From IMG/VR virus record IMGVR_UViG_3300029319_007452, positions 1-43,529 of that record: 43,529 nucleotides of DNA. One strand, 5' to 3'. The notes below the pieces were generated by a model. It worked only from the letters and a program-made list of their open reading frames with translations. It did not search any database and was not told where the DNA came from. Position 1 is the first letter of the stretch, and each line of letters starts with the position of its first letter. The DNA is from a virus. The translations under genes and the position numbers were made by a program. This document shows, piece after piece, positions 5,545 through 42,393 of the stretch.

Positions 5545-8090
5545 TAGTCTTTCAGAGTTATAAACTCACAACCTCTGTTTACTAATTCTTTATTATTTTC
5601 CTTGATATAATCAAAGAAATTCCATGCCAATACTAATATATTATCTGGTGGATTCTCATCCAATGAACCATTCTTACCTTTAATCGGTATTCTTACTCCA
5701 GGTAATAACTTACCATGTTTCATTTCATTATCTTCTATAATATAATCAATAGACTCACTATCTATACCATAATAATTCAAAACCGTAGTTGCCTTTGCTG
5801 GTGAACCATAACCTACGATTGATTTACCTTCATCTTTGAGACTCTGTATTTTAGAAACTGAATCCTCTTTGCACTTTTCTACTTTTTTTGCAAATTCTTT
5901 ATAGGTTTCTAACTTATCTAACCCAAATTCTCTTTCCATCTGTATAAATTTATGTACAGATGTATTAACAAGATGACCTTGTGCTCCAATATAAACTCTT
6001 ATTGAACCACCGTGAGTATCAACACGCTCTACATTAGATATTTGTAAACCCAATTGTTCAACAAAATTATTAAGTGATAATACACTCCAATAATTATAAT
6101 GTTCGTGATAAATATTATCAAAAGTTAAATCCTTTAATGTATCATATAAATACTGAACCTCAATTACTAAATGTCCACTCGGTTTCATTATCCTAAATGC
6201 GTTTCGGGTAATCTGTTCGAGATTATCTGAATGTGCAAATACATTAAATGCAGTTACTAAATCTGCTTCTTGTTTAATTTGACTTATTGTAGATTCATCT
6301 TCAAAATATCCATTGATAGTTGGAACTCCATTTTGTTCTGCAAGATAAGATAAGTTTTTTGCAGGTTCAACTCCACATACACTTATACCTTTCTCTTGAA
6401 GTGGTTTAAGAAATACTCCATCATTACTACCAATATCAACTACAAAAGAACCTTCCCTCAAAGCAAATTGTTCTGTAAGTAAATCTGCTGCATCTGAAAA
6501 ATGTTTTCTAAACACCTCTGTTGTAGATGACACATAAAGATACTCATTAAACATTTTCTCTCTCGGAACTGAATGAGACAACTGAACATTATGACAATTA
6601 GGACAATAGTTCATTTGTAATGGATACAACACATCCTTTTGATTTTCATCATCTAATAAATTATTTGCCAATGGTGAATTACCAAGTGAAACCACACATT
6701 CTAATCTTGTATTACCACAACATCTACATTCTGCTTTATAGTTTTCAAGTAGTTCTACTCTCATTCTCTCGTCCACTAACTCGTAAGGTAGTGTATGTTT
6801 ACCATAGTTATCGTGTTCTCTTTCACCATTGACGAGATTCAGAAATAGTGAATCTTCAAGAAATACCATTGTATGTGCAACTTGTGGTTCAGTAACCACT
6901 ACATCACCTGGCTCCATAAGTTGTGTAGTCATAGGAGCGTTAGGTGTTTTTAAATCTTTGAATACGCTAATATATCTACCACTAATCAAGATACACTTTT
7001 GTTGTTGTATTGGATGCCAATGGTTTGCTCTTACCGTACCTTTTTTAGATTCAATCCAACCAATCCAATTTATAGGTTCAGGTAACTCATAGTTAGTGAT
7101 ACGACCTCGTTCATCTACAAACTCTTTACCACCATCAAACTTATATTCCAATACATCTCTTCTCAATGATACATCAGACCAAGCATCAATCATACCCTTT
7201 ATATCATCACGGATATTATTTCTAAACTCAAATCCAGTATCAAGTAGTTTTTGATTTGATAATGTGTATCCTTGATTTGGTATTTCATCATCAGTTTCGG
7301 TCAAATCTAATGCTGGAACAAACTCTTTACATATTTCTGCTACATCTTTTACGGTCATATTCTCATTTCTCAAATGAAATACTTGTCTTTGAATATCATC
7401 TCGTTCTGCCATAAATTTCATACAACGAGCTACATCAAATAATGATACAAGTGATTTCCATTGGACACCACCACCAAATAATTTTATTGGATTACCAGTT
7501 GCTGCCATCTTAGAAAATAGATTAGGCATTATATTGATTCTCATTGAATCACCACCATAACCATATACAGAACCTAACCTCAATACTATATAATTGACCG
7601 ATGAATTTTCTAAATCTTCTTCTGATTGAACTTTACCTTTTGAATAGGTTAATACAGGACAAGTTTCTACTGACTCCTCAATATCAAATGCAGTTTCACC
7701 AAATCCTTCATACACTACATGAGTAGATGGAAAGATAACTTTTGTATTCTCACCAACCGAGTCGATTATATTATTTGTTCCATCAACTCCAACCTCACGA
7801 ATCTCTTTGTCTTGGTCATCATTGGATTCAGACTTTACATAAGCAACATCAGTAACTCCACCGAGATGATAAACCACATCTGCATCTTTTAATAAATCTT
7901 TGAAAAAATCTTTATCTAATAAATCTGATTGGTGATATTTAAATCCCCAAGATTTTAACTCCTTTACTCTTTCGGGTAAGAATTTCCTGTCCACGATATG
8001 AACATCATGTTCTAAATTTTCTTCTATATATAGTTTCGATAATTGTGTTCCAATATAACCTAAACCACCTGTTATGACTATTTTTGACAT
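5544..8090 (-). CDS. Three-domain sugar enzyme: SDR epimerase + cupin + C-methyltransferase
   Basis: One 848-codon frame holds three enzymes. Residues 1-300 are an extended SDR with GGLGYIG at 8-14 and Tyr149-xxx-Lys153. Residues about 315-440 are a cupin with NHWHP (357-360) and a later His406, like sugar epimerase/isomerase cupins and the C-terminal half of CapF. Residues about 450-848 are a sugar C-methyltransferase with a zinc site (Cys455/458 and CPNC 496-499), a SAM motif VVDIGSNDG (550-558), HEHYNYWS (662-669) and a C-terminal GYGSPAKATT block (760-769). The C-methyltransferase half resembles TylCIII-type enzymes of deoxysugar pathways. It likely builds a branched deoxysugar. The fusion shows no internal stop or frameshift. 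Confidence 0.9.
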   Translation of the reverse strand: MSKIVITGGLGYIGTQLSKLYIEENLEHDVHIVDRKFLPERVKELKSWGFKYHQSDLLDKDFFKDLLKDADVVYHLGGVTDVAYVKSESNDDQDKEIREVGVDGTNNIIDSVGENTKVIFPSTHVVYEGFGETAFDIEESVETCPVLTYSKGKVQSEEDLENSSVNYIVLRLGSVYGYGGDSMRINIMPNLFSKMAATGNPIKLFGGGVQWKSLVSLFDVARCMKFMAERDDIQRQVFHLRNENMTVKDVAEICKEFVPALDLTETDDEIPNQGYTLSNQKLLDTGFEFRNNIRDDIKGMIDAWSDVSLRRDVLEYKFDGGKEFVDERGRITNYELPEPINWIGWIESKKGTVRANHWHPIQQQKCILISGRYISVFKDLKTPNAPMTTQLMEPGDVVVTEPQVAHTMVFLEDSLFLNLVNGEREHDNYGKHTLPYELVDERMRVELLENYKAECRCCGNTRLECVVSLGNSPLANNLLDDENQKDVLYPLQMNYCPNCHNVQLSHSVPREKMFNEYLYVSSTTEVFRKHFSDAADLLTEQFALREGSFVVDIGSNDGVFLKPLQEKGISVCGVEPAKNLSYLAEQNGVPTINGYFEDESTISQIKQEADLVTAFNVFAHSDNLEQITRNAFRIMKPSGHLVIEVQYLYDTLKDLTFDNIYHEHYNYWSVLSLNNFVEQLGLQISNVERVDTHGGSIRVYIGAQGHLVNTSVHKFIQMEREFGLDKLETYKEFAKKVEKCKEDSVSKIQSLKDEGKSIVGYGSPAKATTVLNYYGIDSESIDYIIEDNEMKHGKLLPGVRIPIKGKNGSLDENPPDNILVLAWNFFDYIKENNKELVNRGCEFITLKD

Positions 8091-8099
8091 TATTTATTC

Positions 8100-8840
8100 C
8101 TATTTTATATAATTGTATTCTCTCATCCAATCACCAAATTCATCAATTATTAATTGTTCTTGAGTTGGTGAAAACACATCTTCCCAACCATTTATAATTC
8201 CGTTATTTGATGCATGTCGTGGATTATTCCGTAACCATTCATCGGAAACCTCTATACATTCTTTTGCTGTACATCCACTAAGATTTAATTTGTGTAACAT
8301 TTCTGTAATAACTTTTTCTTTATTATCCATATAAGCCTCATAGTGGAAAATATAATCCACACCAGTAGCAAGCCATTTATACCAACCCTCGTCTATTATC
8401 TTTGTACCCTGTTCTAATATTTGATTTTTTGGAATAAAATATTTCCTATCACCATCAAGTGGTACATAATTAGTATCATGATACTCGACCTTAAATTGTT
8501 TATAATTTTCTGGACACGGATTACCCTTAGAATCGATAAATATCCTAACCCCACTTTCTTCTGGATGTTGTCGTATAGTTGACCTAAAACCTGATGCTAA
8601 TACATCTCTAAAGTCCCTTCTACATATTACCCACTTTTCTGTATCTCGTTTGTTTCCAGGTCTCTCTTTTTTCCAATGAAAATATTTCAAAGGACCAAAA
8701 TTTTCTCTGGTCTCATCTTTTCCAGTTAGATCAATACCCATTGACTCTATTGCATAAGTGAGTATATTTTTAACTAAAGTAGTTCCAGTTCTACCCATTC
8801 CAACTACTGCTATATCTACTTCTGGACTATCCTTTCCCAT
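8100..8840 (-). CDS. Sulfotransferase-like P-loop protein
   Basis: The 246-residue protein begins with a strand and the loop GMGRTGTTL (residues about 14-22), the PAPS 5'-phosphosulfate loop of the sulfotransferase superfamily. A CRRDFRDVLASGF segment near residue 75 matches the 3'-phosphate-binding helix (R...S). It probably moves a sulfuryl group from PAPS to a glycan or other hydroxyl group. No membrane segment is seen, so it would act in the cytoplasm before export or on a soluble substrate. It lies between the trifunctional sugar enzyme and the sialyltransferase, so a sulfated surface sugar is a fair inference. Some sulfotransferase-fold viral proteins have no proven activity. Confidence 0.72.
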   Translation of the reverse strand: MGKDSPEVDIAVVGMGRTGTTLVKNILTYAIESMGIDLTGKDETRENFGPLKYFHWKKERPGNKRDTEKWVICRRDFRDVLASGFRSTIRQHPEESGVRIFIDSKGNPCPENYKQFKVEYHDTNYVPLDGDRKYFIPKNQILEQGTKIIDEGWYKWLATGVDYIFHYEAYMDNKEKVITEMLHKLNLSGCTAKECIEVSDEWLRNNPRHASNNGIINGWEDVFSPTQEQLIIDEFGDWMREYNYIK

Positions 8841-8848
8841 TTCAATTC

Positions 8849-9565
8849 CTAATACAGAGTTATATGTTTTAGTTCCACAAGATTATTTACATATTCCTTT
8901 TCTGCCAATGGATTATGTCCTCTACTATAAGGTGTTATACTTTCAAAATAATGTTGTTCGTCCCAACCTTCTTGAAAAAAAGTAAATCCAAAAACTGAAA
9001 CATTACTTGACCATTGAAGTGCCATCAATATTGCAGTCAAACCTAAACTTATATCACCTATCCCCAATTTCTTTTCTGCCTCATCTATAAAATCTTGACG
9101 AATATATAATATTTTAGATTCTGTATTATAGTTCTTAATAATTCCTTGTATTGCTGCATATAATGGTTCTGCCTTTATTATAAAGTGTTGGTCTTTAAGA
9201 TTAGTAAGAAAATTATCTTCGTATGATGAAAATTGACCTGTTAAATCTCTCCAAAAAGATTTACCTGCTATAAATCTAAAGTCTGTTTTTGTTCCAACAT
9301 TTTTCTCAAAACCTTCTGTTTTTGCTAAATTACAACGAAAAACTATATCATGAGAGTCTATAAACTCTCCTTGTTCCTCAGATAATAACTTACCAGAATT
9401 ACCAACTACTGCAACAGATTGTTCCCTCTGAACCTCTTTTGTGATATGATTCAATTCTCTCATCCGTTTAACTAATTCGTCAAGAGAATATTGTGATGGA
9501 TATTCTAAATCACGACTACGAAATACTGATTCCATTTCATCAGTAGTATAAAAATATTTACTCAT
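8849..9565 (-). CDS. GT29-family sialyltransferase
   Basis: All four sialylmotifs of family GT29 can be seen in 238 residues. Motif L spans about 50-96, with VAVVGNSG (51-58), DSHDIVFRCN and VGTKTDF. Motif S spans about 170-195 (SLGLTAILMAL ... VFGF). Motif III is HYFE at 205-208, and motif VS is His217-xxxx-Glu222. GT29 transfers sialic acid from CMP-sialic acid and is best known from animals, where the domain is Golgi-anchored. Here the N-terminus is short and has no membrane anchor. With NeuA and NeuB nearby, donor synthesis and transfer are both encoded. The acceptor is unknown. It overlaps gmd by 8 bases. Confidence 0.85.
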   Translation of the reverse strand: MSKYFYTTDEMESVFRSRDLEYPSQYSLDELVKRMRELNHITKEVQREQSVAVVGNSGKLLSEEQGEFIDSHDIVFRCNLAKTEGFEKNVGTKTDFRFIAGKSFWRDLTGQFSSYEDNFLTNLKDQHFIIKAEPLYAAIQGIIKNYNTESKILYIRQDFIDEAEKKLGIGDISLGLTAILMALQWSSNVSVFGFTFFQEGWDEQHYFESITPYSRGHNPLAEKEYVNNLVELKHITLY

Positions 9566-10532
9566 ATATTTTTAACCAATGGTCAATCATATCATCCATC
9601 AATTCTTCAAAAGTGAATTCTGGTTCCCATCCTAAAGTATTTCTAAGTTTTGATGAATCACCACGAAGATATTTCAATTCTTCTGCTCTAAAAAATCTTT
9701 CATCAATAGTAACATAATCCTTATAATTTAAATCTAATTTATTAAATACATAATTACACATATCACCAACCGAATTGGTAACACCTGTAGCACATACAAA
9801 ATCATCAGGTGTGTCGTGATTCATAATCATATGCATTGCTCTTACATAATCCTTTGAATGTCCCCAATCACGATATGCTTCTAAGTTACCAAGTGGTAGT
9901 TTATCTCGTAATCCATTCTTAATTTGAACAGCAGACTTAACAACTTTATTAGTTACAAAGTTAGAACCTCGTCTTGGTGATTCGTGATTAAATAAAATAC
10001 CATTACAGGCGAATAATTTATAAGCGTGTCTGTAATGTTGTGTCATATTAAATCCAAATACCTTTGTACATCCGTAAGGACTCGTAGGGTGCATTGGTGT
10101 TGTTTCTCTCTGATATCCATCTTCATCTACTGAACGACCAAACATCTCTGATGATGACGCTTGGTAAAATTTTGCCGTTGGACAATTATTTCTCCACGCT
10201 TCTAATATATTGACAATACCAAGTGCGTTTGCCTGAACTGTATATTGTGGTATATCAAAACTTATCCTAACATGACTTTGTGCTGCTATATTATATATTT
10301 CATCTGGTTGTATAGTTCGTATTAATCTTTCTAATGAACTGATATCAGTTAAATCTCCGTAGAAAGTTTCTACTCCATTTCCAACTAAATCATCAATTCT
10401 ATTTTCTTGATTTTCTGCTACAGAATTTCTCCTTACAATTCCATAAATTTCATAATCCTTTTCCAATAATAACTCAGCTAAATAACTACCATCTTGTCCA
10501 TTAATACCTGTTATAAATGCTTTTTTCTTCAT
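9558..10532 (-). CDS. gmd: GDP-mannose 4,6-dehydratase
   Basis: This SDR enzyme converts GDP-D-mannose to GDP-4-keto-6-deoxy-D-mannose, the entry point to GDP-fucose, colitose, rhamnose and perosamine. Within 324 residues it shows GINGQDGSYLAE (9-20) for NADP, the SSSEMFG block (126-132), Tyr153-xxx-Lys157, and the FNHESPRRG segment (181-189) diagnostic of Gmd. The length is close to bacterial Gmd (about 320-370). It has an ATGA overlap with the short DegT-fold gene upstream and lies in the same operon as an Fcl-like enzyme and a GT11 fucosyltransferase. The substrate GDP-mannose must come from the host, as no ManB or ManC is seen here. Confidence 0.95.
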   Translation of the reverse strand: MKKKAFITGINGQDGSYLAELLLEKDYEIYGIVRRNSVAENQENRIDDLVGNGVETFYGDLTDISSLERLIRTIQPDEIYNIAAQSHVRISFDIPQYTVQANALGIVNILEAWRNNCPTAKFYQASSSEMFGRSVDEDGYQRETTPMHPTSPYGCTKVFGFNMTQHYRHAYKLFACNGILFNHESPRRGSNFVTNKVVKSAVQIKNGLRDKLPLGNLEAYRDWGHSKDYVRAMHMIMNHDTPDDFVCATGVTNSVGDMCNYVFNKLDLNYKDYVTIDERFFRAEELKYLRGDSSKLRNTLGWEPEFTFEELMDDMIDHWLKIYE

Positions 10533-25391: not shown

Positions 25392-25408
25392 ACTTTTAAT
25401 GTAAAAGT
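25392..25408 (-). other. 7-bp inverted repeat in the gap after the ClpP-like gene
   Basis: A perfect stem ACTTTTA-CAT-TAAAAGT begins within the stop codon of the protease gene. It is AT-only apart from one G/C pair and lacks a T-run, so a strong rho-independent terminator is unlikely. It may mark a weak processing or regulatory site, or be chance in AT-rich DNA. The rest of the gap holds TATAAG and the AAGGAG of the next gene. Confidence 0.22.
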
Positions 25409-26001
25409 CAAGTAATTTCGTCAATTATTCCGTAATCCAAACATTCTTGTGCTGTTAAATAGGTATCTTGTTTGGATACACCTTCCCAAAACTCTTGTGA
25501 TTTATTTGTAACCTCACCTAAAATACGATTTATATTTTCTAATAATTTTTTCAAATGGTCAGCTCCTTTTAGGACATCAGATGTTTTACCTGCCTCAAAT
25601 GCTGAACCCTCGTGAACCATAACCGTAGAATTTGCCGTCATTGTTCTTTTGCCAGTTCCACACGCTAATATTACTGCGGCTGCTGACATACAGGCTCCGA
25701 AACAATGTGTATTTACCTTTACTGGTAAAGTTTTGAAATAGTCAATTGTTCCTAACATAGAATAAACATCACCACCATAAGATGATAACACCAAATTTAT
25801 ATCTTGACCTTCATTATGTTGAATAAAATTATCAAATCTGGTCATTACTGCATATAATGAATCTTGTTCTATCTCATAGGTCAAATACATAGTGTTAGAC
25901 TTTGTATTTATTCCCCACTCTAAATTCTTGAATAATATCTGTGTTTTATCATCCAAACCATTCATATCTGCATAGTCTACTTTCAGTACTCTATCTGTCA
26001 T
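25408..26001 (-). CDS. clpP: ClpP-like serine protease (first copy)
   Basis: The 197-residue protein has the ClpP catalytic triad: Ser106 in GACMSAAA, His130 in VMVHEGS, and Asp179 in QDTYLTAQECLDYGIIDEI. A SSYGGDVYSMLG segment (73-84) matches the Gly-rich strand that binds the substrate backbone. ClpP forms barrel-shaped proteases fed by AAA+ unfoldases; no ClpX or ClpA is visible, so it may use the host unfoldase or act on phage proteins such as capsid or scaffold. A second, quite different ClpP lies at 37635-38246. The two might assemble together or act separately. Confidence 0.86.
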   Translation of the reverse strand: MTDRVLKVDYADMNGLDDKTQILFKNLEWGINTKSNTMYLTYEIEQDSLYAVMTRFDNFIQHNEGQDINLVLSSYGGDVYSMLGTIDYFKTLPVKVNTHCFGACMSAAAVILACGTGKRTMTANSTVMVHEGSAFEAGKTSDVLKGADHLKKLLENINRILGEVTNKSQEFWEGVSKQDTYLTAQECLDYGIIDEIT

Positions 26002-29799: not shown

Positions 29800-30214
29800 A
29801 ACCACATCTTGTAAACAATCTCTTACTCATTTCATTCCATTCATCCACTTGGGCCCATACATAATCTAATTGTCTCAATTTTGCTGCTGTAATAATATAA
29901 CTAATTAATCCAAATCCATAACCCTGATTTCTTGAGTCTTTATGTACATAAAGATTTAAGCCCTCTTTAGTCTCATAGTTTAACCAATACCAACCTCTAA
30001 GTTTATTATCTATTTGTAGTACTGAAAATAACCAACCATCTTCTAATCTCTGTTTTGCATCTTCTACACTCCACATCTCATCCCAACCCAAGTCCTTCTG
30101 AAAAAGGTCTATCGCAGATTGTAGTTTATCTTCGTCTATCTCTTTCCAATATGATATTTGATGTGGAGTTGGGTAAAATTGATAATTGTTTAAATACCTA
30201 CGATACTCAATCAT
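29783..30214 (-). CDS. GNAT-family N-acetyltransferase
   Basis: The 143-residue protein has the GNAT acetyl-CoA site LNLYVHKDSRNQGYGFGLI, with the Q/R-x-x-G-x-G loop (around 105-110), and a C-terminal MSKRLFTRCGYEV segment typical of the last helix and strand. It may acetylate an amine or a small molecule; peptide N-termini are another common GNAT target. The start is ATG 30214, one codon after a possible TTG. It overlaps the 2OG oxygenase gene upstream by 8 bases and the GAMT-like gene downstream, so the three are probably co-translated. Confidence 0.78.
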   Translation of the reverse strand: MIEYRRYLNNYQFYPTPHQISYWKEIDEDKLQSAIDLFQKDLGWDEMWSVEDAKQRLEDGWLFSVLQIDNKLRGWYWLNYETKEGLNLYVHKDSRNQGYGFGLISYIITAAKLRQLDYVWAQVDEWNEMSKRLFTRCGYEVHI

Positions 30215-30878
30215 CAAATAAATAGTCCTCTATACTCTTTAAATTTGCTTCTTCACCGATACTTGGTAATCCTAAATTTGGTCTTTTATCGTATTTATGA
30301 TCACTAAATTCACCATGTTTACGAACATAATGTATAAATAATTGTATACATTCGTGTCCACCATATCTTTTTCTCCAATGACTCATTTTAGTTCCCTCAT
30401 AAAAACACATATCACCAGTCTTTAATACAACACCCTTTGCCTCTTCGTTTCTCATAGATTTTTCTACACCACTATGGTCAGCGGTATAACCACCATATTT
30501 CTCAAAATCATATTTTTGCATAAATATTGGCCAAATTTCATCATATTTTATAGGTAGTGTTGCACTAAATTCACAAGATGGTCTATCAATATGTGGTCTA
30601 AGTTCATCATCCTGATTATAAACTCTCATAAATGTATAACAGGGATAAAGTTCTTCTCCAACTATTTCTTCTGCAATTGGTAATGTCCATTTTAATATAG
30701 CATCATTTAATGGATCACCATACATATTTATTGTATTATTGACTTGATGGTTCTCGTCCCACGAAAACTCATTATTTGATATTTTTATTTTATAATACTC
30801 GTGTATGATTTCACAAGTTTCTTTGGATAAAACTTTTTTTCTTACTTCATAACCATTTTCATTAAACATTTTATCCAT
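30207..30878 (-). CDS. 2OG-Fe(II) oxygenase
   Basis: The 223-residue protein has His96-x-Asp98 in RPHIDRP and a distal His167 in KMSHWRKRY, giving the Fe(II) triad, with VVLKTGDMCFYEG in between as expected for the double-stranded beta-helix. It resembles prolyl-4-hydroxylase-like phage enzymes. It hydroxylates an unknown substrate using O2 and 2-oxoglutarate. The last 30 residues (DHKYDKRPNLGLP) are an extra tail. It lies directly downstream of the Hint-containing protein and its 153-residue partner. Confidence 0.78.
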   Translation of the reverse strand: MDKMFNENGYEVRKKVLSKETCEIIHEYYKIKISNNEFSWDENHQVNNTINMYGDPLNDAILKWTLPIAEEIVGEELYPCYTFMRVYNQDDELRPHIDRPSCEFSATLPIKYDEIWPIFMQKYDFEKYGGYTADHSGVEKSMRNEEAKGVVLKTGDMCFYEGTKMSHWRKRYGGHECIQLFIHYVRKHGEFSDHKYDKRPNLGLPSIGEEANLKSIEDYLFDD

Positions 30879-31332
30879 CCCAACTTGGAATACCAGAACC
30901 TGTATCAGCGGATGAAGATGGAATATAATAACTTTCCATTAATTTTCCCTCAATAAAGTGTCTAAATTTTCTATAAGTACCATATCCAGATACTGCTGTA
31001 TATTCAGTATCTTCAACTTGAATAGAATAAGCCTCTTCAAATAAACTTTCACTCATTTGAATATCATTACATAGTTGGGTTTTAAAACTACCAGTAAAGG
31101 ATGCGCTAATTGGTGCCCAAGTATTTGGAATATCATCCCACCCTTGCCAAGTTACACTAATAGGTTCAAACCAAAATAGTGGTTTAGAATCCACAAGTTC
31201 ATTGAATCTCTCCATAACACTACTCGATACTTGACCACTACCAGTAAAATCGTTTATATTCCAAAAATCCTTGTCATCTGGTGTAGGTAAATTTGCTAAT
31301 ACCGTTCCACCTATTTTTAGAGTTTTTGCCAT
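30871..31332 (-). CDS. Hypothetical protein, partner of the Hint protein by position
   Basis: The 153-residue protein is not recognised. It is rich in Ser, Thr, Trp and Phe and looks beta-structured (SASFTGSFKTQL, YSIQVEDTEYTAVSGYG), with a Ser/Gly-rich end. That composition is common in phage tail and decoration proteins. It starts three bases after the stop of the 902-residue Hint/LamG protein and may be co-assembled with it. No signal peptide, zinc site or enzymatic motif is visible. Confidence 0.5.
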   Translation of the reverse strand: MAKTLKIGGTVLANLPTPDDKDFWNINDFTGSGQVSSSVMERFNELVDSKPLFWFEPISVTWQGWDDIPNTWAPISASFTGSFKTQLCNDIQMSESLFEEAYSIQVEDTEYTAVSGYGTYRKFRHFIEGKLMESYYIPSSSADTGSGIPSWDG

Positions 31333-31335
31333 AAC

Positions 31336-34044
31336 TTATCCCTCATACATCATATCTTTATTATCATTAGTACCATACCACTCATCCCATTGTTCTGCTA
31401 TTTCTAATTTTGTCAATTGAGCATCATAAATAGCATACATAGATATCTGACAATTAGAATTATAATTAATCTGACTTGGAGTTGTGAGGGCATAATTTCC
31501 ACCACCTACTCCAATATCAGTACTTGGACTTCTCGGATTTGCTTGTGGAGTTGTTAATCCAGAGAAGTAAGTAAAATGATCTGGTGAACTTGGTTTTCTA
31601 TCAAAACCCATACTAAAATAAGGTGAAGGACCTTGGTCACACTTTACCCAAATACATCTCATCCTGGCAACATTTGTTCTTCCACTTGAATAAAATGTGG
31701 GACCTGGTGCACTAACTATCATATCTGTTTGAGCTGGTAGTGTTGTTAGTGTTCCTGTTGTATACAAACCCACATAACCTTGTGGCTGTACTCCATATGT
31801 CCAATTTGCTCCAGGTCCAATATCATGAAATCTATTCAGTGCTGGTGCTGAAGGGTTGTATCCCTCATGTGCAGCGTCATTAGAAGTTCCAGGTGCTGTT
31901 ACTGATACAGCCATAACTGAAGTCATTACTGCCTGTTGATAAAATAAAGTCTGAGTATGATATGGATTGCCTGGTTGTTTTTCTGCACCATATGTAAGGT
32001 CCTCTGGAACCATAAGTCCGTCAAAAAGAGGAAATCCTGGTCCTGGTATTTTACTATTACCCTTTATTGTTTCTGTGGTGGGTGTTGCTGGTTTTACTGT
32101 AAGATCCATATTTAATCTTGTAGTCAAATCATACCATGTTGGTATTGATCCAGGTGTATTACCTGGTAAACTCGATGGATGTCCAGCATCCCAATGACCG
32201 ATTAAATCTGGACCATTTATCAAACTATAAGTACTTGGGCCATTATGAACATGCATTCTATTCATAAAATAATTTTCTGTTGGCATTATCGTATAAATAT
32301 CCCAATGTGACCTTCTACCAATCATTTCTCTCATAGAAACTACTTTACATGCAATCATCTCACCATAAGCTTCAGATGTCTGTTTCATATCGGGTCTTTT
32401 CGGAGTCAAACATATCATTCCAGGTCGTAACTTCATTACTTCCATATTTTTGACTTGTTTAGTCAAATCTGGACGATATGATGCCCAACCAAATGTTGGT
32501 CTTGACTTTTCAATTCCAGATTCATTATGAGTTCCAAATGGTTCACTACCATCTCTTCTATCCCTACGAATCTCCTTGTCCATTGAATTTATTACTTTTA
32601 GTGGTTTTTCAAATAAAAATTCACTTTGAAAATATGTTCCGTGAGATTCGAATGTTATCTCAACCACTCTGTCTGGCATTTTTTGATCTTCAACCGAATC
32701 AATAATACCATCTACAATACCTTGTTCATCAAATGAAAGAACAGAATCTCGGTTTTCTGGATTATAAATTTTCTGATTTTTAGGGCCTAATACAAAATTA
32801 TCAGATTTAGAACTAATCTGTAAACCATCAATACCAAAAACATTATTTTCTGTCTTAATATATCTCGTTCTAGCAGATTCTCGTATTATTTCTTTTAATT
32901 CTATTTTAACTGAACGATTATCAACAAGTAACTCATCTCCAACCTCCAAACTCCAAACTGGTTTAAATTGACCATCAGAACAAAGAATAGATGCAGAATA
33001 ACATATTTTATATTGATTATTTATTTTAATGTATTTGTGATGAATAGGATTAGTACTATTTTCAATTTCAAGAACTCTACCACCATTTTTCAAAATAGAA
33101 TCAGTATTCAACTCTAACGCTTTAACTATACTTCCATCTTCCAATTCTACTTTACTTTCAGTTAAAATATTTCCTTTAGAAACTCTTGAAAGTTGTAGTT
33201 CATTATCACCTACTGGTAAATAATCCCAAAATTGAGTATATAAATTTGGATTTAAATGATAATTTGTTTTCTTAAAAATCATCACATAATCTTTAATTTC
33301 TACATGAAAACCAGTTTCTTTATCTATGTCTGCCTCTATAAATCTTTCTACATAATCAAACTCTTTTAATCTATCTTCAAAATCTTTTTCATTATCAAAC
33401 TTAAAAATACCTATACCTTGTTTTCTATCAACCTTTCGTCTTTTAAAAACAAACCACTTATCTTTTTCAAAAATGGATTCCCCGTCACCATAATATTTTG
33501 GATGATCTTCAAATATTTTCGTAGGAGTTATAAACCTATTCCAAGCTCTCTTGTCTGCGGCCATTCTATCAAGGATACAATTTTTATCCCATGCCAGTCT
33601 TAATATAAAATCGTCTTGTTTGTTATATTCAAAATCCCATATATTATTAATATCATTTGCAACTTGAAATTTTACGGTAGGTGTAAATGGATAATTTTTT
33701 ATTTCAGAGACTGCCTTCTCTAAGTGTTTATACCACTTTGAATCATTAAAATCTTTTTGTGATTCTTCAACTAACACAATAATATTTTTATATTGCCAAT
33801 GTCTTACCAGTCTACACAACATCTCATAATCAGTCCACTCTACTAAATCGTCATCAAATGCACTATTTGTATTTACTTCAAGTGAATATAAACCAAAATT
33901 AGATGGTATTATATCAAGCACAAAAATGACTCCCTCATTCCTCTTTAACTTAGAAGTCAAAGGCATGAGCTCATCTGTTACTAATCTTGATTTATAATAC
34001 AGAGAATGTTTGTACGATAACTTATCAAATATTTGTTTTTCCAT
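31336..34044 (-). CDS. Multidomain protein: ATP-grasp-like, Hint domain, LamG-like C-terminus
   Basis: Three parts can be seen in 902 residues. Residues about 140-280 resemble an ATP-grasp domain (WFVFKRRKVDRKQGIGIF and a following YVERFIEADI). Residues about 290-601 look like a Hint (hedgehog/intein) domain: an LTESKVELEDGS start, DGQFKPVWSLEVGDELL (358-374) and the ENYFMNRMHVHN end (590-601) with terminal Asn601. The usual Cys/Ser nucleophile at the Hint N-terminus is not obvious. Residues about 610-890 look LamG/concanavalin-like, from LIGHWDAGHPSSLPG to YAIYDAQLTKLEIAEQW. The start codon lacks a clear Shine-Dalgarno. It may be a self-processing virion or tail protein. Confidence 0.76.
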   Translation of the reverse strand: MEKQIFDKLSYKHSLYYKSRLVTDELMPLTSKLKRNEGVIFVLDIIPSNFGLYSLEVNTNSAFDDDLVEWTDYEMLCRLVRHWQYKNIIVLVEESQKDFNDSKWYKHLEKAVSEIKNYPFTPTVKFQVANDINNIWDFEYNKQDDFILRLAWDKNCILDRMAADKRAWNRFITPTKIFEDHPKYYGDGESIFEKDKWFVFKRRKVDRKQGIGIFKFDNEKDFEDRLKEFDYVERFIEADIDKETGFHVEIKDYVMIFKKTNYHLNPNLYTQFWDYLPVGDNELQLSRVSKGNILTESKVELEDGSIVKALELNTDSILKNGGRVLEIENSTNPIHHKYIKINNQYKICYSASILCSDGQFKPVWSLEVGDELLVDNRSVKIELKEIIRESARTRYIKTENNVFGIDGLQISSKSDNFVLGPKNQKIYNPENRDSVLSFDEQGIVDGIIDSVEDQKMPDRVVEITFESHGTYFQSEFLFEKPLKVINSMDKEIRRDRRDGSEPFGTHNESGIEKSRPTFGWASYRPDLTKQVKNMEVMKLRPGMICLTPKRPDMKQTSEAYGEMIACKVVSMREMIGRRSHWDIYTIMPTENYFMNRMHVHNGPSTYSLINGPDLIGHWDAGHPSSLPGNTPGSIPTWYDLTTRLNMDLTVKPATPTTETIKGNSKIPGPGFPLFDGLMVPEDLTYGAEKQPGNPYHTQTLFYQQAVMTSVMAVSVTAPGTSNDAAHEGYNPSAPALNRFHDIGPGANWTYGVQPQGYVGLYTTGTLTTLPAQTDMIVSAPGPTFYSSGRTNVARMRCIWVKCDQGPSPYFSMGFDRKPSSPDHFTYFSGLTTPQANPRSPSTDIGVGGGNYALTTPSQINYNSNCQISMYAIYDAQLTKLEIAEQWDEWYGTNDNKDMMYEG

Positions 34045-34072: not shown

Positions 34073-34708
34073 CTATCTAAAAGGTTTACCGTGAACCCAT
34101 AAAACAAGTGATCTTCTTTCACCTTTAGTAACAGGAGTTACAGCATGTCGTAAAAATGATGGAAAAAATATAATCGTACCTTTAGTTTTTGGATATAACA
34201 TTTCATCACCATCAGCAGCCAAATAATCTTGAAATAAAACATCACCACCTTCATAATCATCTGGATCTGATAATAAAACAATTATACTCATTTTTCTATA
34301 AGATGATGGAGCATTTCCACCACAATCAACATGAAAATCATATTTCCCCTTTTCAGATGATTTATATCTCAAATATATTGCTGGTTCTAACATAGCCAAA
34401 AGGTCAAAATTCCAAGTTTGTTGATTTATATCCCAAACTAAATCTTGTAATTTTGAATATACCCAAGAAAAATCATTACCGAATGGTAATGGTTTTTGCC
34501 ATGCTTTTCTTTCTGAATCTTCATCGGCACTACCAAAAGTTGAATCACCATGAGTTAGTGCCTGTGTTTCTTGTATCAATTCTACTTGTTTTTCAAGTCT
34601 TTTTAATTCTATGTCACCAAAGGCACCCTCAATTGCAAAAGGACGATAATCTGCTCCCTTTGATGCTGTTATAGTTTTTATTGCCAATCCTGGATTTGCT
34701 GCAAACAT
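34073..34708 (-). CDS. PKHD/prolyl-hydroxylase-type 2OG-Fe(II) oxygenase
   Basis: The 211-residue protein has a textbook P4H domain: His126-x-Asp128 in YDFHVDCGG, EGGDVLFQDY between the iron ligands, FFPSFLRHAV with His188, and Arg198 in ERRSLVLWV binding 2-oxoglutarate. Phage PKHD-type proteins hydroxylate unknown targets, perhaps virion or host proteins. It directly precedes the 902-residue Hint protein in transcription order, which makes that protein a possible target; this is inference. Its own start is clear (ATG 34708), with no competing upstream start. Confidence 0.86.
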   Translation of the reverse strand: MFAANPGLAIKTITASKGADYRPFAIEGAFGDIELKRLEKQVELIQETQALTHGDSTFGSADEDSERKAWQKPLPFGNDFSWVYSKLQDLVWDINQQTWNFDLLAMLEPAIYLRYKSSEKGKYDFHVDCGGNAPSSYRKMSIIVLLSDPDDYEGGDVLFQDYLAADGDEMLYPKTKGTIIFFPSFLRHAVTPVTKGERRSLVLWVHGKPFR

Positions 34709-34720
34709 ATTAAACTCCTA

Positions 34721-35149
34721 TTATATTTTTTTAAATTTTTTATTTTTTGTTATTTCCAAATCTAAAGTATATATCGATTCTGAATCACATTTGAAATCTA
34801 TACTTGTCGGTAAAATAATTAAATTTGTTTTATGAACTACTGTTTTAAATGATGTTGATGATAAAAAATCATTTTTTTTATCACTCCAATTGAACTCCAT
34901 TTCCGTATTATCTTTTAATAACATTAAAACCTTAGTATTATTAGATTTAGAATTTAAATTATAATATAATTGTGATTTTATATTATGATTGTGTGATAAA
35001 AACTTCTTTAAATGTTCCATCAATAGAGATACAAACTCATTATTATCCAATGGATTATCATTCTCAAGTAAAATATGATACATTAAATGGTTATCAATAG
35101 AATAGTATATCTGTGGACCTAATATACTTATAAAATTATATTTAAACAT
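34721..35149 (-). CDS. Hypothetical protein (unrecognised)
   Basis: I do not recognise this 142-residue protein. It is rich in Asn, Lys, Leu and Ser, and looks beta-rich at both ends (NFISILGPQIYYSID and LIILPTSIDFKC). No motif, signal peptide or membrane span is evident. It lies between two 2OG oxygenase genes and overlaps the upstream one by 8 bases, so it is translated with them. Its low-complexity look could mean recent acquisition or rapid change. A role as substrate or partner of the oxygenases is possible but not shown. Confidence 0.5.
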   Translation of the reverse strand: MFKYNFISILGPQIYYSIDNHLMYHILLENDNPLDNNEFVSLLMEHLKKFLSHNHNIKSQLYYNLNSKSNNTKVLMLLKDNTEMEFNWSDKKNDFLSSTSFKTVVHKTNLIILPTSIDFKCDSESIYTLDLEITKNKKFKKI

Positions 35150-35702
35150 CTACTTCCAATACTCCTTCCATGTGAAAAGGTTTTAAATCTTTTTTTAATA
35201 ATATATTTCCTGCCACTACATATCTATTACCATCAAACTCCTTAGATGGAACTGAATGTCTAACCCATCCTGGAAATATAACTATTAAACCTCGTTTTGG
35301 ATATATTTTTTTATTATGTACTATTAATGGTGGAAACCCCTGTCCTTCATTTAAATAAATACAAAACGACCATTCACTATTGCCGTGGTCGTGTTCCTTT
35401 GCATATTCTTCAGACTCATATTTTGCACCCCACATATCTGAAAGAACCCAATCTAATGGCAACACCTCAAATAAAGATTTCATAAGTTTTGCAACTTCAT
35501 CCATCCTCTCATCTTCTTTCCAAGACCGATAACGAGTCATATTACATTTAAGATTGGTTCGATGAAACTCTTCATCACCTCTGTCATCAATCATCTCAAT
35601 TAAAGTATCAAGTATAGTATCATTATTAATCCGATACTGATGAATATTAGGTGGATTAGTTCTTGAGTGCCAACTCGTATCCTTTGTTAAATGTTCTATC
35701 AT
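35142..35702 (-). CDS. 2OG-Fe(II) oxygenase (FeII_Oxy_5-like)
   Basis: The 186-residue protein has KEHDHG (His104-Asp105-His106) before WSFCIYLNEG, and VIFPGWVRHSVPS with His149 followed by Arg160 in DGNRYVVAGNI. This is the iron and 2-oxoglutarate pattern of the phage 2OG-FeII_Oxy_5 group, common in marine phages. It is the third such enzyme within 5.5 kb. The substrate is unknown. The ATG at 35702 opens the frame, 24 bases after the upstream gene. Confidence 0.74.
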   Translation of the reverse strand: MIEHLTKDTSWHSRTNPPNIHQYRINNDTILDTLIEMIDDRGDEEFHRTNLKCNMTRYRSWKEDERMDEVAKLMKSLFEVLPLDWVLSDMWGAKYESEEYAKEHDHGNSEWSFCIYLNEGQGFPPLIVHNKKIYPKRGLIVIFPGWVRHSVPSKEFDGNRYVVAGNILLKKDLKPFHMEGVLEVDV

Positions 35703-36857: not shown

Positions 36858-37635
36858 TTTGTAACTCCTTTAACTTTACGGTTGCAACTCCGTGTTTCTG
36901 TACAACAAGTGTAGTACATTTTTGTGCAAAATTAATTGCTTTTTCTATATCTTGTGTATCTAAATAACCACGAACTAATGCTGCAAGAAATGTATCACCA
37001 GCACCACTAACATCCTTTACTGGTACTTCAGGAACAGAATATACTTTATTTCTATATCTACACCCCCTACTACCTAATGTAACAACAAGTTTATCCTCAA
37101 AACCATTAGATAATATCTCATGATTTTTTTTATATTCCAACTCATTTATTTTTATGAAATCTGCAAATTCAATCCATTTACCGAGTTTCTTTTTAGTATC
37201 TACAAATACATTGTCATTATTTTCACAAATAAACTGAATGTCATCTTCTTCTAAAAAACCCTTACAATAATCTGAAATGATAATTGCATCAACTTTTGTT
37301 ACATCATTAAAGTGTGGTTTACATTTATTATTCCGTATAGTTTCTAAAACTTTCTTATCTATCCGTTCACAATAATCATGTTCATCAACTCTCAATACCA
37401 TTTGACCACTACGATTATCAACATACCTTTTTTTAACTATACCATTTTTATTAGTAATAGTAGATATATTCATTTCTAATGATTCAACATTATGTGAGAC
37501 ATTTCGAGCCATTCCGTCATTCTTCTCCGTATGTGATGGAACAAATACGGGTATTGGTGCTTCAGGACTTATTCGTGTAATATCACCATATACAAATATA
37601 TCTTGACAACTATCTCCTATAACTAATACTCTCAT
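36850..37635 (-). CDS. PfkB-family kinase, HldE/RfaE kinase-like
   Basis: The 261-residue protein resembles the kinase half of HldE/RfaE, which phosphorylates heptose-7-phosphate on the way to ADP-heptose for LPS core. It has GDSCQDIFVYGD, then RISPEAPIPVF (21-31), KKRYVDNRSGQMVLRVDEHD (69-88), and DVSGAGDTF with catalytic Asp214. It is shorter than a typical HldE kinase (about 315) and lacks the nucleotidyltransferase half. A related sugar-1-phosphate kinase role is possible. Its ATG overlaps the ClpP stop by one base (TAATG). Confidence 0.8.
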   Translation of the reverse strand: MRVLVIGDSCQDIFVYGDITRISPEAPIPVFVPSHTEKNDGMARNVSHNVESLEMNISTITNKNGIVKKRYVDNRSGQMVLRVDEHDYCERIDKKVLETIRNNKCKPHFNDVTKVDAIIISDYCKGFLEEDDIQFICENNDNVFVDTKKKLGKWIEFADFIKINELEYKKNHEILSNGFEDKLVVTLGSRGCRYRNKVYSVPEVPVKDVSGAGDTFLAALVRGYLDTQDIEKAINFAQKCTTLVVQKHGVATVKLKELQSG

Positions 37636-38246
37636 TAAATTATCTCATCAATTAATCCATACTTTAAACAAGTTTCTGCATCCCACATTAAATCGTGTTT
37701 TAATATCTCATCAAGTTTCTTCATAGGAACTTTAGTATATTTCTTATACACATTTTTAATAGTTTTCATCATCAAATCAAGATTCTGTTTTTCATCTTCG
37801 AAATTAGAGTATGTTCCCCAAAATTGAGTCGATAATTGATGAATCAACATATAAGAATTCCTACTCATAAATCTGAAATTACCAACAACCGACATAAAGG
37901 TTGCTGCACTTGCACAGAATCCATCTACATAAGTATGTACTGGAACTTTTGCTCTCAGTATTGTGTCCATAGATGAAATACCACTTACAACTGAACCACC
38001 ACCTGAATTGATAAATATTTTTAGTGTTGGTGGTTGGTCTAAATCTAAAGTATTACATAATGTTAAACTTTTAGATTCTAACTCACCTATCTTTTTATTG
38101 AGTTCAGATGCACTATCTCGGTTTACACCAGCATAGTAATAAATCTTGTTCTCGTGAACTGATATATGTTTTTCTGGTTTACCACCATTTGGTGATGCAC
38201 TTTTTGGTGCGGGTGATTTCTTTTCACCCCAATATTTTCCGTTCAT
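37635..38246 (-). CDS. clpP: ClpP-like serine protease (second copy)
   Basis: The 203-residue protein has Ser113 in FCASAATFMS, His136 in MLIHQLS, and Asp185 in KHDLMWDAETCLKYGLIDEI, a full ClpP triad, with NSGGGSVVSG (80-89) as the Gly-rich strand. The first 25 residues are a Lys/Pro/Ser-rich extension. It differs enough from the other ClpP (25408-26001) to be an old duplicate or a separate acquisition. Phage ClpP-fold proteases may mature capsids or trim host proteins. It sits in the core block directly downstream of gp44 and the DUF4494 gene. Confidence 0.86.
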   Translation of the reverse strand: MNGKYWGEKKSPAPKSASPNGGKPEKHISVHENKIYYYAGVNRDSASELNKKIGELESKSLTLCNTLDLDQPPTLKIFINSGGGSVVSGISSMDTILRAKVPVHTYVDGFCASAATFMSVVGNFRFMSRNSYMLIHQLSTQFWGTYSNFEDEKQNLDLMMKTIKNVYKKYTKVPMKKLDEILKHDLMWDAETCLKYGLIDEII

Positions 38247-39383: not shown

Positions 39384-40281
39384 TTTTTAGTTCCTCTAAA
39401 TATTCATTAAATTCTTCTTCAAAATTTTTTGATGACATTTTATTTTCCGAAAAACCACCTTTGAGATGAGTTAAAAATGGTTTATCTTTGTAGTAATATG
39501 TATGTAAAGTATCTGGTGTTTTCCAATTTGGATTATCATAATAAGGACCTAAATGTAAATACTTTAAATCATTATAAAGACAATAAATTGTTGCTCCATG
39601 ATTCGTATCACCATAATACCAATCTACATTATAATTATCAAAGAAATTTCTCTTACACAAGAAAAAATACGCATCTGCAAAACCAAGTTTTTTAGTATTT
39701 ACATATCCACCATTTGCGGGTCTCAACGATACCGTTTGTTGTGAATACTCTTTTATATATTTGTCTAAAAAATTTCTACTTAACAAATAAGTTGAAATCC
39801 ATATTTTCTTATTATCAACTGAAATATATTCAAGTTCTTCTTCTTCCATTTGTTTAATCATTTTATCAATACAATCTTGATGATAAAAGGTATCATTATG
39901 TTGTAAGACAACATAGTCTCCCTTAGATTTTTGTATTCCTAAATGAAATGCCATTGATGCCCACATTGTATCATTACCGAAATTATCTAAACTAAGTTGA
40001 ATATCCCTGTGGTTCATAAACTCAGGTATCTTTTTAAGTTCCTCAAGTGGAATTGCTTGCCATCCCTTAACTACCTTTACATTAGGTAATTCAATATCAG
40101 GCCATGTGTGACTATTATCGACTAATATAATTTCTTTATCACATTTAAGTGTATTAATATTCTTAATTGTTTTGATTGTCGAGTATACAACACTCGAAGA
40201 ATCAGAAAATTCGAATCCATCATTTAAATTTAAAAATTTATCCTTTTCTACAGTCATAAAAGGAACAATAAAACTAATCAT
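39373..40281 (-). CDS. GT2-like glycosyltransferase
   Basis: The 302-residue protein starts ISFIVPFMTV and has an EIILVDNSHTWPD segment (about 50-62), the acidic end of the first Rossmann half. YVVLQHNDTFYHQDCIDKM (about 133-151) follows; its HND lies where other GT-A enzymes have DxD. Many aromatic residues around 195-265 (GFADAYFFLCKRNFF, YYDNPNW) suggest a sugar-binding groove. It overlaps gp44 by 11 bases, so it belongs to the transcript that runs into the replication genes. Donor and acceptor are unknown. Confidence 0.64.
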   Translation of the reverse strand: MISFIVPFMTVEKDKFLNLNDGFEFSDSSSVVYSTIKTIKNINTLKCDKEIILVDNSHTWPDIELPNVKVVKGWQAIPLEELKKIPEFMNHRDIQLSLDNFGNDTMWASMAFHLGIQKSKGDYVVLQHNDTFYHQDCIDKMIKQMEEEELEYISVDNKKIWISTYLLSRNFLDKYIKEYSQQTVSLRPANGGYVNTKKLGFADAYFFLCKRNFFDNYNVDWYYGDTNHGATIYCLYNDLKYLHLGPYYDNPNWKTPDTLHTYYYKDKPFLTHLKGGFSENKMSSKNFEEEFNEYLEELKNAN

Positions 40282-41279
40282 AATTTGACCTCTTCTTTTA
40301 ATAAACCATTATCATGGTATATCTTTGCTTTATTTATTATATTTCCATAATCAAAATCACATTCTAATGCTATTTGACCATTAGAATACCAAAAAAACCA
40401 TTTTCCATCCATTTTATCATTTCTCATCAATCCCTCACATCTTTTTCCCCCACCAAAAAACCACTCCGTATATTTTCCCTCTAAACCAAGGCCTTTCTCC
40501 GTCCAGGACTTTTTTTTGTTTCCATTATTATACCATGTCATATTTCTCCACATATTATAACCAGTATCACTTCTGATTGATTCACTAACTTTTTGTCCTT
40601 TTTTGTTCCAATCAACAACTTTTAGTAAAACTGAACGATCATATGTTTCTTCTTTCACCTTTTTTTTATCTGAATCATTATATGTCCAAGTTCCGTCTTG
40701 ATAATTATTATCATATTTACCTTCTACTATTAATGTACCATCCACCCTATATCTTTTATACTTACCAATTCTAACTCCCATATTAAAATAGTCTATTGAC
40801 TGTATTTGTCCAGATGTATAATACGACTTAACCTCATCATGACTAGCATGATCACGAGTAACACCACTCTGTCTTAAACACCCATTTGCATAATAATATT
40901 CATATTTACCATCTAACTTATCATCTACAAAATTTTCTTTTGAAATTAAATTTCCATTTTCTCGATATTGAATCAACTCACCATTTAATTTACCATCTTT
41001 ATAATTACCTTCCCATTTTTTATTTCCATTTTCATGATAAAAAAGACACTTACCTTGTCTATCTCCGTTTTCATCTAACTCAACATGAGGTGCACCATTA
41101 TTATATAATCTTTTATTTTCTGTTTCTTGATCTAACTCTTCAACTAATTGTTTTTCTAACTCAGGATTTTTATCTCTCCATTTCAAATATTCCTTAAATC
41201 GTTTATCAAATGGTAATACAACCTTTCCGTCAATCTCTATAGCATTTTCATTATCTTTTATTTTTTTATATTTAATCAT
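40278..41279 (-). CDS. YwqK/MORN_2-type repeat protein (second of two)
   Basis: This 333-residue protein contains about ten imperfect 22-24 residue repeats with the core pattern G(K/E)xxxYxxNG, for example YHENGNKKWEGNYKDGKLNG. These match MORN_2 repeats of the YwqK family, which form beta hairpins. YwqK is named as an antitoxin in Bacillus, but no toxin is next to this gene, so that label should not be carried over. Its N-terminal 60 residues are non-repeat and charged. The ATG at 41279 overlaps the sister gene by 8 bases; the frame could begin at a TTG at 41291. A binding or scaffold role is likely. Confidence 0.76.
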   Translation of the reverse strand: MIKYKKIKDNENAIEIDGKVVLPFDKRFKEYLKWRDKNPELEKQLVEELDQETENKRLYNNGAPHVELDENGDRQGKCLFYHENGNKKWEGNYKDGKLNGELIQYRENGNLISKENFVDDKLDGKYEYYYANGCLRQSGVTRDHASHDEVKSYYTSGQIQSIDYFNMGVRIGKYKRYRVDGTLIVEGKYDNNYQDGTWTYNDSDKKKVKEETYDRSVLLKVVDWNKKGQKVSESIRSDTGYNMWRNMTWYNNGNKKKSWTEKGLGLEGKYTEWFFGGGKRCEGLMRNDKMDGKWFFWYSNGQIALECDFDYGNIINKAKIYHDNGLLKEEVKL

Positions 41280-42393
41280 CTTCCTTACCAATTAAATGTT
41301 TAAATCTTATATTCTCTTTTTCGTTACCCCCATTATCCCAAACCTTTCCGTCAATAAGTTCTCCATTTTTACAAACAACTTCACATTCTTTATGTCCATT
41401 AGGATGCCAATATGTCCATTTACCATCCATTTCTCCATTCTTCATTTTACCCCTTGACCTATTCTTTTTCAATCCTCTCATTCTCCATTCTTCATAAAGT
41501 CCTTCCATTACTCCATTTTTATAATTTCTCCTCATATGAATTTGACCAGTATAAAAATATTTTTCTCTCTTTCCATGTATAATGTCCATATCATACATAA
41601 AGGTTTCCTTTACTTTTCCATTGTCATAATAATAAATCCAATCACTATCCTTTTTACCCGATAACCAATACTGAATACTTGATTTTTCACCGTTCTTATA
41701 ATATTCTATACATTTACCATTTAATTTTCCATCTTTATATTTATATTTTTTCCACTCATTACCATTCGGATGCCATTCTTTTTTCTCTTGTATTTCTCCA
41801 TTTTGATATTTTTCTTCTTTTCGAATTTCTCCTTTGTCATTGAAATAAATCCACTTATCTATTTTTTTATCATCTTCATACATACCATCAAGAATAACTA
41901 AATCATGATTATATTGAATATATTTACCATCTAACTTATCATCTACATAATTTAATTCAAAAAGTTTTTTTCCTGACTCCGAATTAAATTGAACCCACTT
42001 ACCTATTTTTTTATTATTTTTATAATATCCTTCCTCTTGTTTAATTCCATTGTCATAATATGCAATAATCTCTCCTTCTAATTTATCATTTTTATAGTTA
42101 TATTGTTTGTATAAATTACCATTAGCATGATATTCTAAATACCCACCATTTTTCTTTCCACCAAAATAATTTTCCTCTTTCCATAAAACTCCATTATCAT
42201 GCCAAGTTTTCCAACATCCTACTTTTAAACCCTTATCATATTCTTGTTCAATACTAACTTGTCCATTTGAATGATAATGTATCCATTTACCTTGTGGTTT
42301 CCCATTAACGATTTCGTATTCTTGCCAAGTATTTCCATTTGGATGATCATATTTATGACGACCATCAGACATATCAACTCTAAACTCTGTCAT
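41272..42393 (-). CDS. YwqK/MORN_2-type repeat protein (first of two)
   Basis: The 373-residue protein is built of about fourteen repeats of 22-24 residues with a YxxNG core, such as WHDNGVLWKEENYFGGKKNG, covering nearly its full length. The shared repeat type and the adjacent position make it a paralogue of the gene downstream. It has no signal peptide and no catalytic motif. Long solenoid-like proteins of this type could bind protein, membrane or glycan. It lies between a GT8-like gene and the sister gene, within a glycan segment. Repeat number could vary between strains by recombination. Confidence 0.78.
   Translation of the reverse strand: MTEFRVDMSDGRHKYDHPNGNTWQEYEIVNGKPQGKWIHYHSNGQVSIEQEYDKGLKVGCWKTWHDNGVLWKEENYFGGKKNGGYLEYHANGNLYKQYNYKNDKLEGEIIAYYDNGIKQEEGYYKNNKKIGKWVQFNSESGKKLFELNYVDDKLDGKYIQYNHDLVILDGMYEDDKKIDKWIYFNDKGEIRKEEKYQNGEIQEKKEWHPNGNEWKKYKYKDGKLNGKCIEYYKNGEKSSIQYWLSGKKDSDWIYYYDNGKVKETFMYDMDIIHGKREKYFYTGQIHMRRNYKNGVMEGLYEEWRMRGLKKNRSRGKMKNGEMDGKWTYWHPNGHKECEVVCKNGELIDGKVWDNGGNEKENIRFKHLIGKEDD

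Follow-up and report, generated by a model that had tools for sequence, protein, structure and literature searches.

Locus and genomic neighbourhood

The window, by which we mean the whole stretch of DNA analysed, is a 43,529-bp virus record. Its genes include one for a clamp loader (phrog_168, E 5.3e-85), along with many for sugar, methyl- and glycosyltransferase functions. A sequence-only reading had singled out a 902-residue protein in it, and the ORF lies at exactly 31336-34044, on the minus strand; the plus strand across this interval is crowded with stops. The order of parts given by that reading, an N-terminal part followed by Hint and a LamG-like end, was also borne out (Table 1). The ORF is not due to chance, because it has homologues on 23 other contigs, is under purifying selection in every part and encodes the predicted fold that we call Hint-1. 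As a single protein of 902 residues, it gave nothing above threshold in Pfam, PHROGs and PDB sequence searches.

Table 1. Features of the 902-residue protein and its conserved neighbours in the window
Feature	Coordinates	Strand	Basis
Complete ORF, 902 residues, stop included	31336..34044	minus	ORF call and homologues
Residues 1-290, weakly ATP-grasp-like	33175..34044	minus	Sub-threshold matches to PurK 3ax6 and ATP-grasp_3
Residues 292-412 (Hint-1), full predicted Hint fold without the catalytic residues	32809..33171	minus	AF2, Foldseek, VIA, hhalign
Asn292, Cys-1 position of Hint-1	33169..33171	minus	Starts of structure alignments; invariant 11/11
Hint-2, residues 413-601, Hint-superfamily candidate, block F/G intact, N-terminal catalysis lost	32242..32808	minus	Profile comparisons
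Asn416, N-F-x-x-G for C-F-x-x-G, proposed counterpart of Cys-1 in Hint-2	32797..32799	minus	Alignments by eye; 11/11
Residues 519-549, match to Pfam AXH positions 85-115	32398..32490	minus	Pfam profile
V599-H600-N601/G602-P603, proposed cleavage site after Asn601	32236..32250	minus	Invariant 11/11
Residues 602-902, lectin (LamG/concanavalin)-like, 32.6 kDa if released	31339..32241	minus	Low-confidence model, masses
Gene for a 2OG-Fe(II) oxygenase, next upstream and conserved there	34073..34708	minus	PF13640 E 1.1e-12 and synteny
Small gene, fast-evolving, next downstream and conserved there, without family match	30871..31332	minus	Synteny

Both neighbours are conserved. A homologue of the oxygenase gene lies directly upstream in 16 of 16 distinct contigs examined, and one of the small gene lies downstream in 13 of the 16; two contigs end before that position, and in L080 the homologue was not found at E 1e-4. 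Genes for 2OG-Fe(II) oxygenases flank the Hint protein, since besides that at 34073-34708 Pfam recognises another at 35142-35702 (minus strand); 30207-30878 (minus strand) was assigned to the same class by eye only, without a Pfam match. Two ClpP-like genes matching head-maturation-protease families (25408-26001 and 37635-38246, minus strand) are present in this one phage. Surface-sugar genes at 4406-10532 (minus strand) include NeuB (E 2.9e-72), a GDP-mannose dehydratase and a GT29-type sialyltransferase (PF00777, E 9.1e-32), the last from a mainly eukaryotic family, and at 5544-8090 an epimerase is fused to a C-methyltransferase. At 40278-42393 (minus strand) there are two adjacent proteins of repeated MORN-like units, recognised by eye.

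Distribution and selection

Protein and motif scans recovered relatives on the 23 other IMG/VR contigs (11 + 8 + 2 + 2 over successive scans), and the family belongs to a group of tailed phages. The gene is complete on 15 of these contigs, contig ends having cut the remaining copies, and all complete copies have the identical part order and lengths of 884-911 residues. Conservation was read from an alignment of 11 members, which are 36-76% identical to the window protein; mean-identity figures omit L073, which is truncated. When IMG/VR was scanned with the motif NYFxNxxxVHNG, 19 of the 24 stretches found lay on contigs of this family and the other five in other Hint proteins, and in GTDB genome contigs 96 stretches of the pattern included 0 relatives. 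Against 50,697 phage records, tblastn gave zero matches with the whole protein (E 0.01) and with one Hint-2 piece (E 10); a second piece gave matches to Staphylococcus phages at E 9 over 34 residues only, which we judged to be chance. No part has a paralogue in eight related records, the window included, with one match each per part.

Purifying selection (dN/dS) was found in all parts of the protein. The lowest dN/dS values fall in Hint-2 (0.165, 0.082 and 0.069 in the three pairs computable for all four parts, a fourth being saturated in both Hints) and the highest in residues 602-902 (0.25-0.60).

The N-terminal and C-terminal parts

The start of the protein had been read as ATP-grasp-like. 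Weak profile matches are indeed present, none of them above a cut-off. The matches place residues ~160-240 on the beginning of the ATP-grasp domain, the PurK profile 3ax6 matching at E 0.26-0.44 and ATP-grasp_3 in 3 of 10 members with a best E of 0.19, all sub-threshold. Elsewhere ATP-grasp_3 reached E 0.0046 in one of four records, at 12.5 bits and under the cut-off, and it scored 13.6 bits in L026, where membership by profile calls for 23.2. Apart from that single 0.0046, the values are E 0.07-0.44, which sets the protein apart from the ATP-grasp enzymes proper. Seven residues (D44, E56, N58, K165, K201, E233 and E249) are invariant in 11/11. The D...E-x-N motif of ATP-grasp enzymes follows the Lys motif, whereas here the E-x-N-like motif (residues 44-58) precedes it (201); that the fold is circularly permuted is our guess. 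Residues 1-290 were modelled poorly in the full-length AF2 prediction. Three other matches were rejected: the Pfam actin cross-linking domain in one of five pieces covering residues 1-75 (E 0.0061, short of the cut-off), ApeA chains with the N-terminal piece (E ~1) and a TRAP transporter (E 0.53), unrelated and dropped. The first two, not taken as real, make it harder to read residues 1-75 as ATP-grasp. From its sequence, the N-terminal part is a weak ATP-grasp candidate.

For the LamG-like end, the likeness is tentative: in a model whose pLDDT is mostly below 50 there, residues ~636-901 align with concanavalin-type lectin folds (VIA, Z ~8), and Pfam LamG gave no match in 6 members at E 10. 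Most matches are to the lectin-type domains found in clostridial neurotoxins and in related proteins; in a low-confidence model they report a common fold and have no bearing on toxicity. A PDB profile search with this part returned one match, attributed to chance. Residues 602-902 are the most variable part of the protein (mean identity 0.36), and this variability, together with the highest dN/dS, is as expected of a host-facing part.

Two probable Hint-type domains in tandem

The sequence-only reading described one Hint domain on the basis of two motifs. Both are present, DGQFKPVWSLEVGDELL at residues ~357-373 and ENYFMNRMHVHN at residues 590-601, directly before Gly602; in place of a single domain, two consecutive Hint-type domains are most likely. 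The former motif lies within a complete predicted Hint fold that ends at about residue 412 (Hint-1), and ENYFMN...VHN closes a separate stretch, 413-601 (Hint-2).

Full-length AF2 (10 rows) gave a pLDDT of 39 and was usable only over ~340-412. The model of residues 285-612 (13 rows) reached a mean pLDDT of 67; averaged in blocks of 10 residues, 295-414 lay at 80-93 save one block of 68, and 414-456 and 579-612 stayed below 50. With this model, the best 24 PDB matches of Foldseek were inteins, BILs, hedgehog or related Hint domains. The best 50 VIA matches listed (Z 11.5-15.1) were all intein or Hint structures and all fell on Hint-1. At the top stands the hedgehog autoprocessing domain 6tyy (Z 15.1, rmsd 1.8, 121 aligned), accompanied by the gp41-1 intein 6qaz (Z 14.8) and the BILs 6y75 (Z 14.4) and 2lwy (Z 14.2). 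A comparison by hhalign with a profile of ten phage Hints agrees (probability 95%, E 2.8e-8); the Hint region found nothing in PDB profile searches. We are confident, from the predicted structure, that Hint-1 is a member of the Hint superfamily over its whole length.

Many VIA alignments begin with Asn292 (model residue 8) on intein residue 1 or hedgehog residue 258, and many close with Ser412 (model residue 128) on about the last intein residue. These pairings locate both the missing nucleophile and the missing terminal Asn. Asn occupies position 292 in 11/11; positions 411-412 read SS, NT, QA, SA or KA and never HN in the 11 members; at the TxxH site (348-351, register by eye) Thr comes first in 3/11 and His last in 0/11. 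Judged by these residues Hint-1 is dead at both ends, lacking Cys-1, TxxH and the C-terminal His-Asn. Its conservation is also among the lower ones in the protein (mean identity 0.40, with 6 invariant positions out of 122). The word 'degenerate' in the earlier reading fits Hint-1; Hint-2 is more conserved than any other part (mean identity 0.68, with 68 invariant positions out of 189). The most distant members, L080, L073 and L108, have a Cys after Asn292 (NC[IM]L[RK]DEVELADGS), beside the lost nucleophile site.

Hint-2 is a Hint candidate by profile comparison. Against the ten phage Hints it scored 28.1 in hhalign, collinear over 115 columns, where the best of 30 column shuffles reached 17.7 and the reversed profile 9.1. 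Blocks F/G alone scored 26.9 (best of 40 shuffles 16.4). This match is not independent and is partly circular, because the reference set was seeded by the NYFxNxxxVHNG pattern: four Hints came from that scan and six from searches with two of the four. They are true Hints, the first four by PDB profile and 9 of ten scanned by Pfam. Without blocks F/G, Hint-2 still scored 23.4 against 16.7 for the best of 40 shuffles (E 0.0038, probability 9%), and residues 413-475 align with the first half of the Hint profile; the pieces 455-580 and 455-562 scored within the shuffle range. A control alignment, A4, scored 26.1, and as two of its rows begin with an ENYFMN..VHNG tail it is an unclean negative control. 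Pfam Hint models gave no match in the window protein (PF07591 none at E 1), PF07591 (PT-HINT) gave none in 12 Hint-2 members at E 10, where HMMER filters limit weak matches, and NCBIfam gave nothing relevant; hhalign of Hint-1 against Hint-2 found nothing.

The tandem has to be weighed against a single Hint spanning 292-601, with a long insert between blocks B and F, whose fold is completed by the hairpin 583-601 in place of 392-412 and which cleaves. Inteins often bear inserts at that place, and VHN would then be the natural end of one domain. However, 292-412 alone is a full Hint with its own end hairpin, with ~115-127 residues aligned to single-domain Hints, and 413-475 matches the first half of a Hint profile. 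We regard a single interrupted domain as quite unlikely.

The AXH match

The Pfam AXH profile (PF08517) matches Hint-2 in 12 of 12 members, sub-threshold throughout (best E 0.00088; 17.8 bits for the window member, curated cut-off 33 bits). The same profile matches a BIL-type phage Hint, L087 2450-2863, whose identity is clear from PT-HINT (E 5.4e-37) and 2lwy (E 5e-50); here the match covers AXH 1-89 (E 0.0018). Because it starts nearly at Cys-1 of L087, an overlap between the AXH and Hint profiles is suggested, with the AXH match of Hint-2 falling in Hint register. The modest profile comparison and this sub-threshold match, both at the level of sequence, make Hint-2 a candidate member of the Hint superfamily. 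That a domain of ataxin-1 and HBP1 matches both a clear phage Hint and Hint-2 hints that AXH itself belongs in the Hint superfamily. No connection between AXH and inteins was found in the literature searched; if real, it would tie an animal domain to this superfamily.

AXH domains bind partners and are not known to cleave. The main rival to cleavage holds that both Hints are dead and purely structural, the VHN being a relic and Hint-2 an AXH-like binding or assembly module. The wholly dead Hint-1 shows that the family tolerates such a domain, a weak Foldseek match to AXH (1oa8, E 0.038, probability 0.82) joins the profile matches in 12/12, and conservation spans all of Hint-2 and not just its end, which could reflect a role other than cleavage. 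Yet the AXH match ends ahead of block F and leaves block F/G unexplained, and His600-Asn601 and the Gly at +1 are invariant in 11/11, whereas the equivalent His-Asn positions of Hint-1 have drifted. A purely structural role is possible, and we hold it to be somewhat unlikely.

Proposed C-terminal cleavage

The end of Hint-2, HWDIYxI-PTENYFMNxxxVHN/GP, is spaced like blocks F and G of inteins. The block-F residue ahead of NYF is Glu in 8/11, Asp in 2/11 (with a four-residue insert) and His in 1/11. H600-N601, the C-terminal His-Asn that marks A-type BILs, is present in 11/11. At +1, where intein splicing calls for Cys, Ser or Thr, Gly602 stands in 11/11 aligned members, as the sequence-only reading had seen in the window protein. 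That reading had also seen no evident Cys or Ser nucleophile at the N-terminus; none is present in either Hint domain, and an invariant Asn takes its place in both (Asn292 and Asn416, 11/11 each, the register of Asn416 by eye). The TxxH site of Hint-2 (477-480, by eye) is LFEK in 11/11. With no nucleophile and with Asn601 followed by Gly, C-terminal cleavage without splicing would be, on these residues, the sole intein-type reaction remaining, in agreement with the earlier proposal. VHNGP is invariant in 11/11, while the flanking lectin part averages 36% identity and Hint-2 68%.

Could the protein instead be a class-2- or class-3-like intein remnant that still splices through an unrecognised nucleophile? 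Inteins of classes 2 and 3 do lack a position-1 nucleophile (PMC7765530, in the text available), but class 2 needs a nucleophile at +1, where Gly stands in 11/11, and class 3 needs a block-F Cys (same text), of which there is none in 580-601 in any of the 11 members. Moreover, the 'exteins' do not make one known domain, and we consider splicing exceedingly improbable.

We give a probability of about one half to the reading in which this is a four-part phage protein whose lectin-like end is freed by a C-terminal-only cut after Asn601. Hint-1, no longer reacting, would serve as a structural spacer or scaffold, and Hint-2 would have lost the machinery of the first splicing step and retained the C-terminal one. 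Asn601, aided by His600, would cyclise to a succinimide and break the bond to Gly602, turning the 103.6-kDa chain into an N-terminal piece of ~71 kDa (70.9) and a freed 32.6-kDa lectin-like piece starting with Gly-Pro. Because Asn occupies both position-1 sites and Gly the +1 site, we expect neither an acyl shift nor a branched intermediate, and no ligation. Asn cyclisation uncoupled from splicing is C-terminal cleavage in inteins and is also an A-type BIL activity (PMC7765530, in the text available). A C-terminal-only cut is the best reading because this cyclisation needs neither acyl shift nor ligation, and because the geometry is that proposed for polymorphic toxins. That Hint-2 is a Hint, the cut itself, the freeing of the lectin part and any virion role are all inferred.

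The C-terminal piece might also be separated by a virion protease or arise from an internal translation start, the Hint part being irrelevant. The two ClpP-like genes of head-maturation-protease type in the window would suit such a separation, although the coincidence of the Hint end with a domain border goes against it, and we think it very unlikely. A wider form of cleavage by Hint-2 can also be drawn, in which a dead Hint-1 scaffold and a thioester-free Hint-2 free the lectin with its Gly-Pro start in a single Asn-cyclisation step, Hint-2 is an intermediate between BIL-type Hints and AXH domains, and a permuted ATP-grasp possibly acts on the freed end with the conserved 2OG-Fe(II) oxygenase next door; all of this together is unlikely.

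If the cut after Asn601 occurs, it would provide a natural C-terminal-only Hint, which to our knowledge has been met chiefly in engineered intein mutants or as a side reaction. Such a trace-free, thiol-independent self-cleaving element could be a tool, and it would illustrate one possible route to the post-translational maturation of a lectin-like phage protein that perhaps recognises the host. Without a cut, the protein would be a striking example of Hint domains turned structural.

Comparison with known systems

BILs are known to retain the N-terminal Cys and TxxH, both gone here, where moreover two Hints stand in tandem. Otherwise A-type BIL domains are close relatives in kind, sharing the Hint fold, the C-terminal His-Asn, an occurrence in variable proteins and, as proposed here, cleavage at the C-terminal end without ligation (PMC7765530, in the text available), and Hint-1 aligns with the BILs 6y75 and 2lwy. 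In polymorphic toxins, a PT-HINT lies directly before the C-terminal part and its release has been proposed (PMC3482391, in the text available). The placement is the same here; the end is lectin-like, with no toxin domain found, and the PT-HINT profile gives no match. The AXH domain shares the sub-threshold profile match in 12/12 and differs in that the match of Hint-2 spans only AXH 85-115 of 116; we know of no AXH domain with an intein-type end. The solved folds nearest Hint-1, among the matches listed, are the hedgehog autoprocessing domain and the gp41-1 intein, from which it differs in having Asn for Cys-1 and no splicing residues.

Hints also occur in other phage structural proteins: Erwinia jumbo phages carry them in proteins labelled tail fibre or virion structural, and BFVD lists them in phage proteins under the names 'Hint domain containing', 'Fibronectin type III' and 'Collagen triple helix repeat'. 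Their surrounding domains are different and most keep the Cys; the exceptions among the phage Hints compared are L088, with Gly at that position, and L079, which is cut at its start. The putative tail fibre of Erwinia phage Yoloswag (L085 1478-2911) terminates about 10 residues past a Hint that has VHN-T, and the next two genes are also annotated as tail fibre. Hint/intein stretches were seen in two further genes whose annotation makes no mention of an intein, the terminase gene of Acinetobacter phage ME3 (L089 1480-1899) and one for a P-loop NTPase in Vibrio phage 13VV501A (L090 1501-1935).

The part order of the protein was not found described in the literature searched, which included the available text of PMC3482391, PMC7765530, PMC3556154, PMC5259590 and PMC7824862. 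In summary, Hints in phage structural proteins, as annotated, and release of the BIL or PT-HINT type are already known, whereas the tandem in which one Hint is dead and the other half-dead, the unvarying Asn where each nucleophile would be and the order of the parts are new as far as our searches went.
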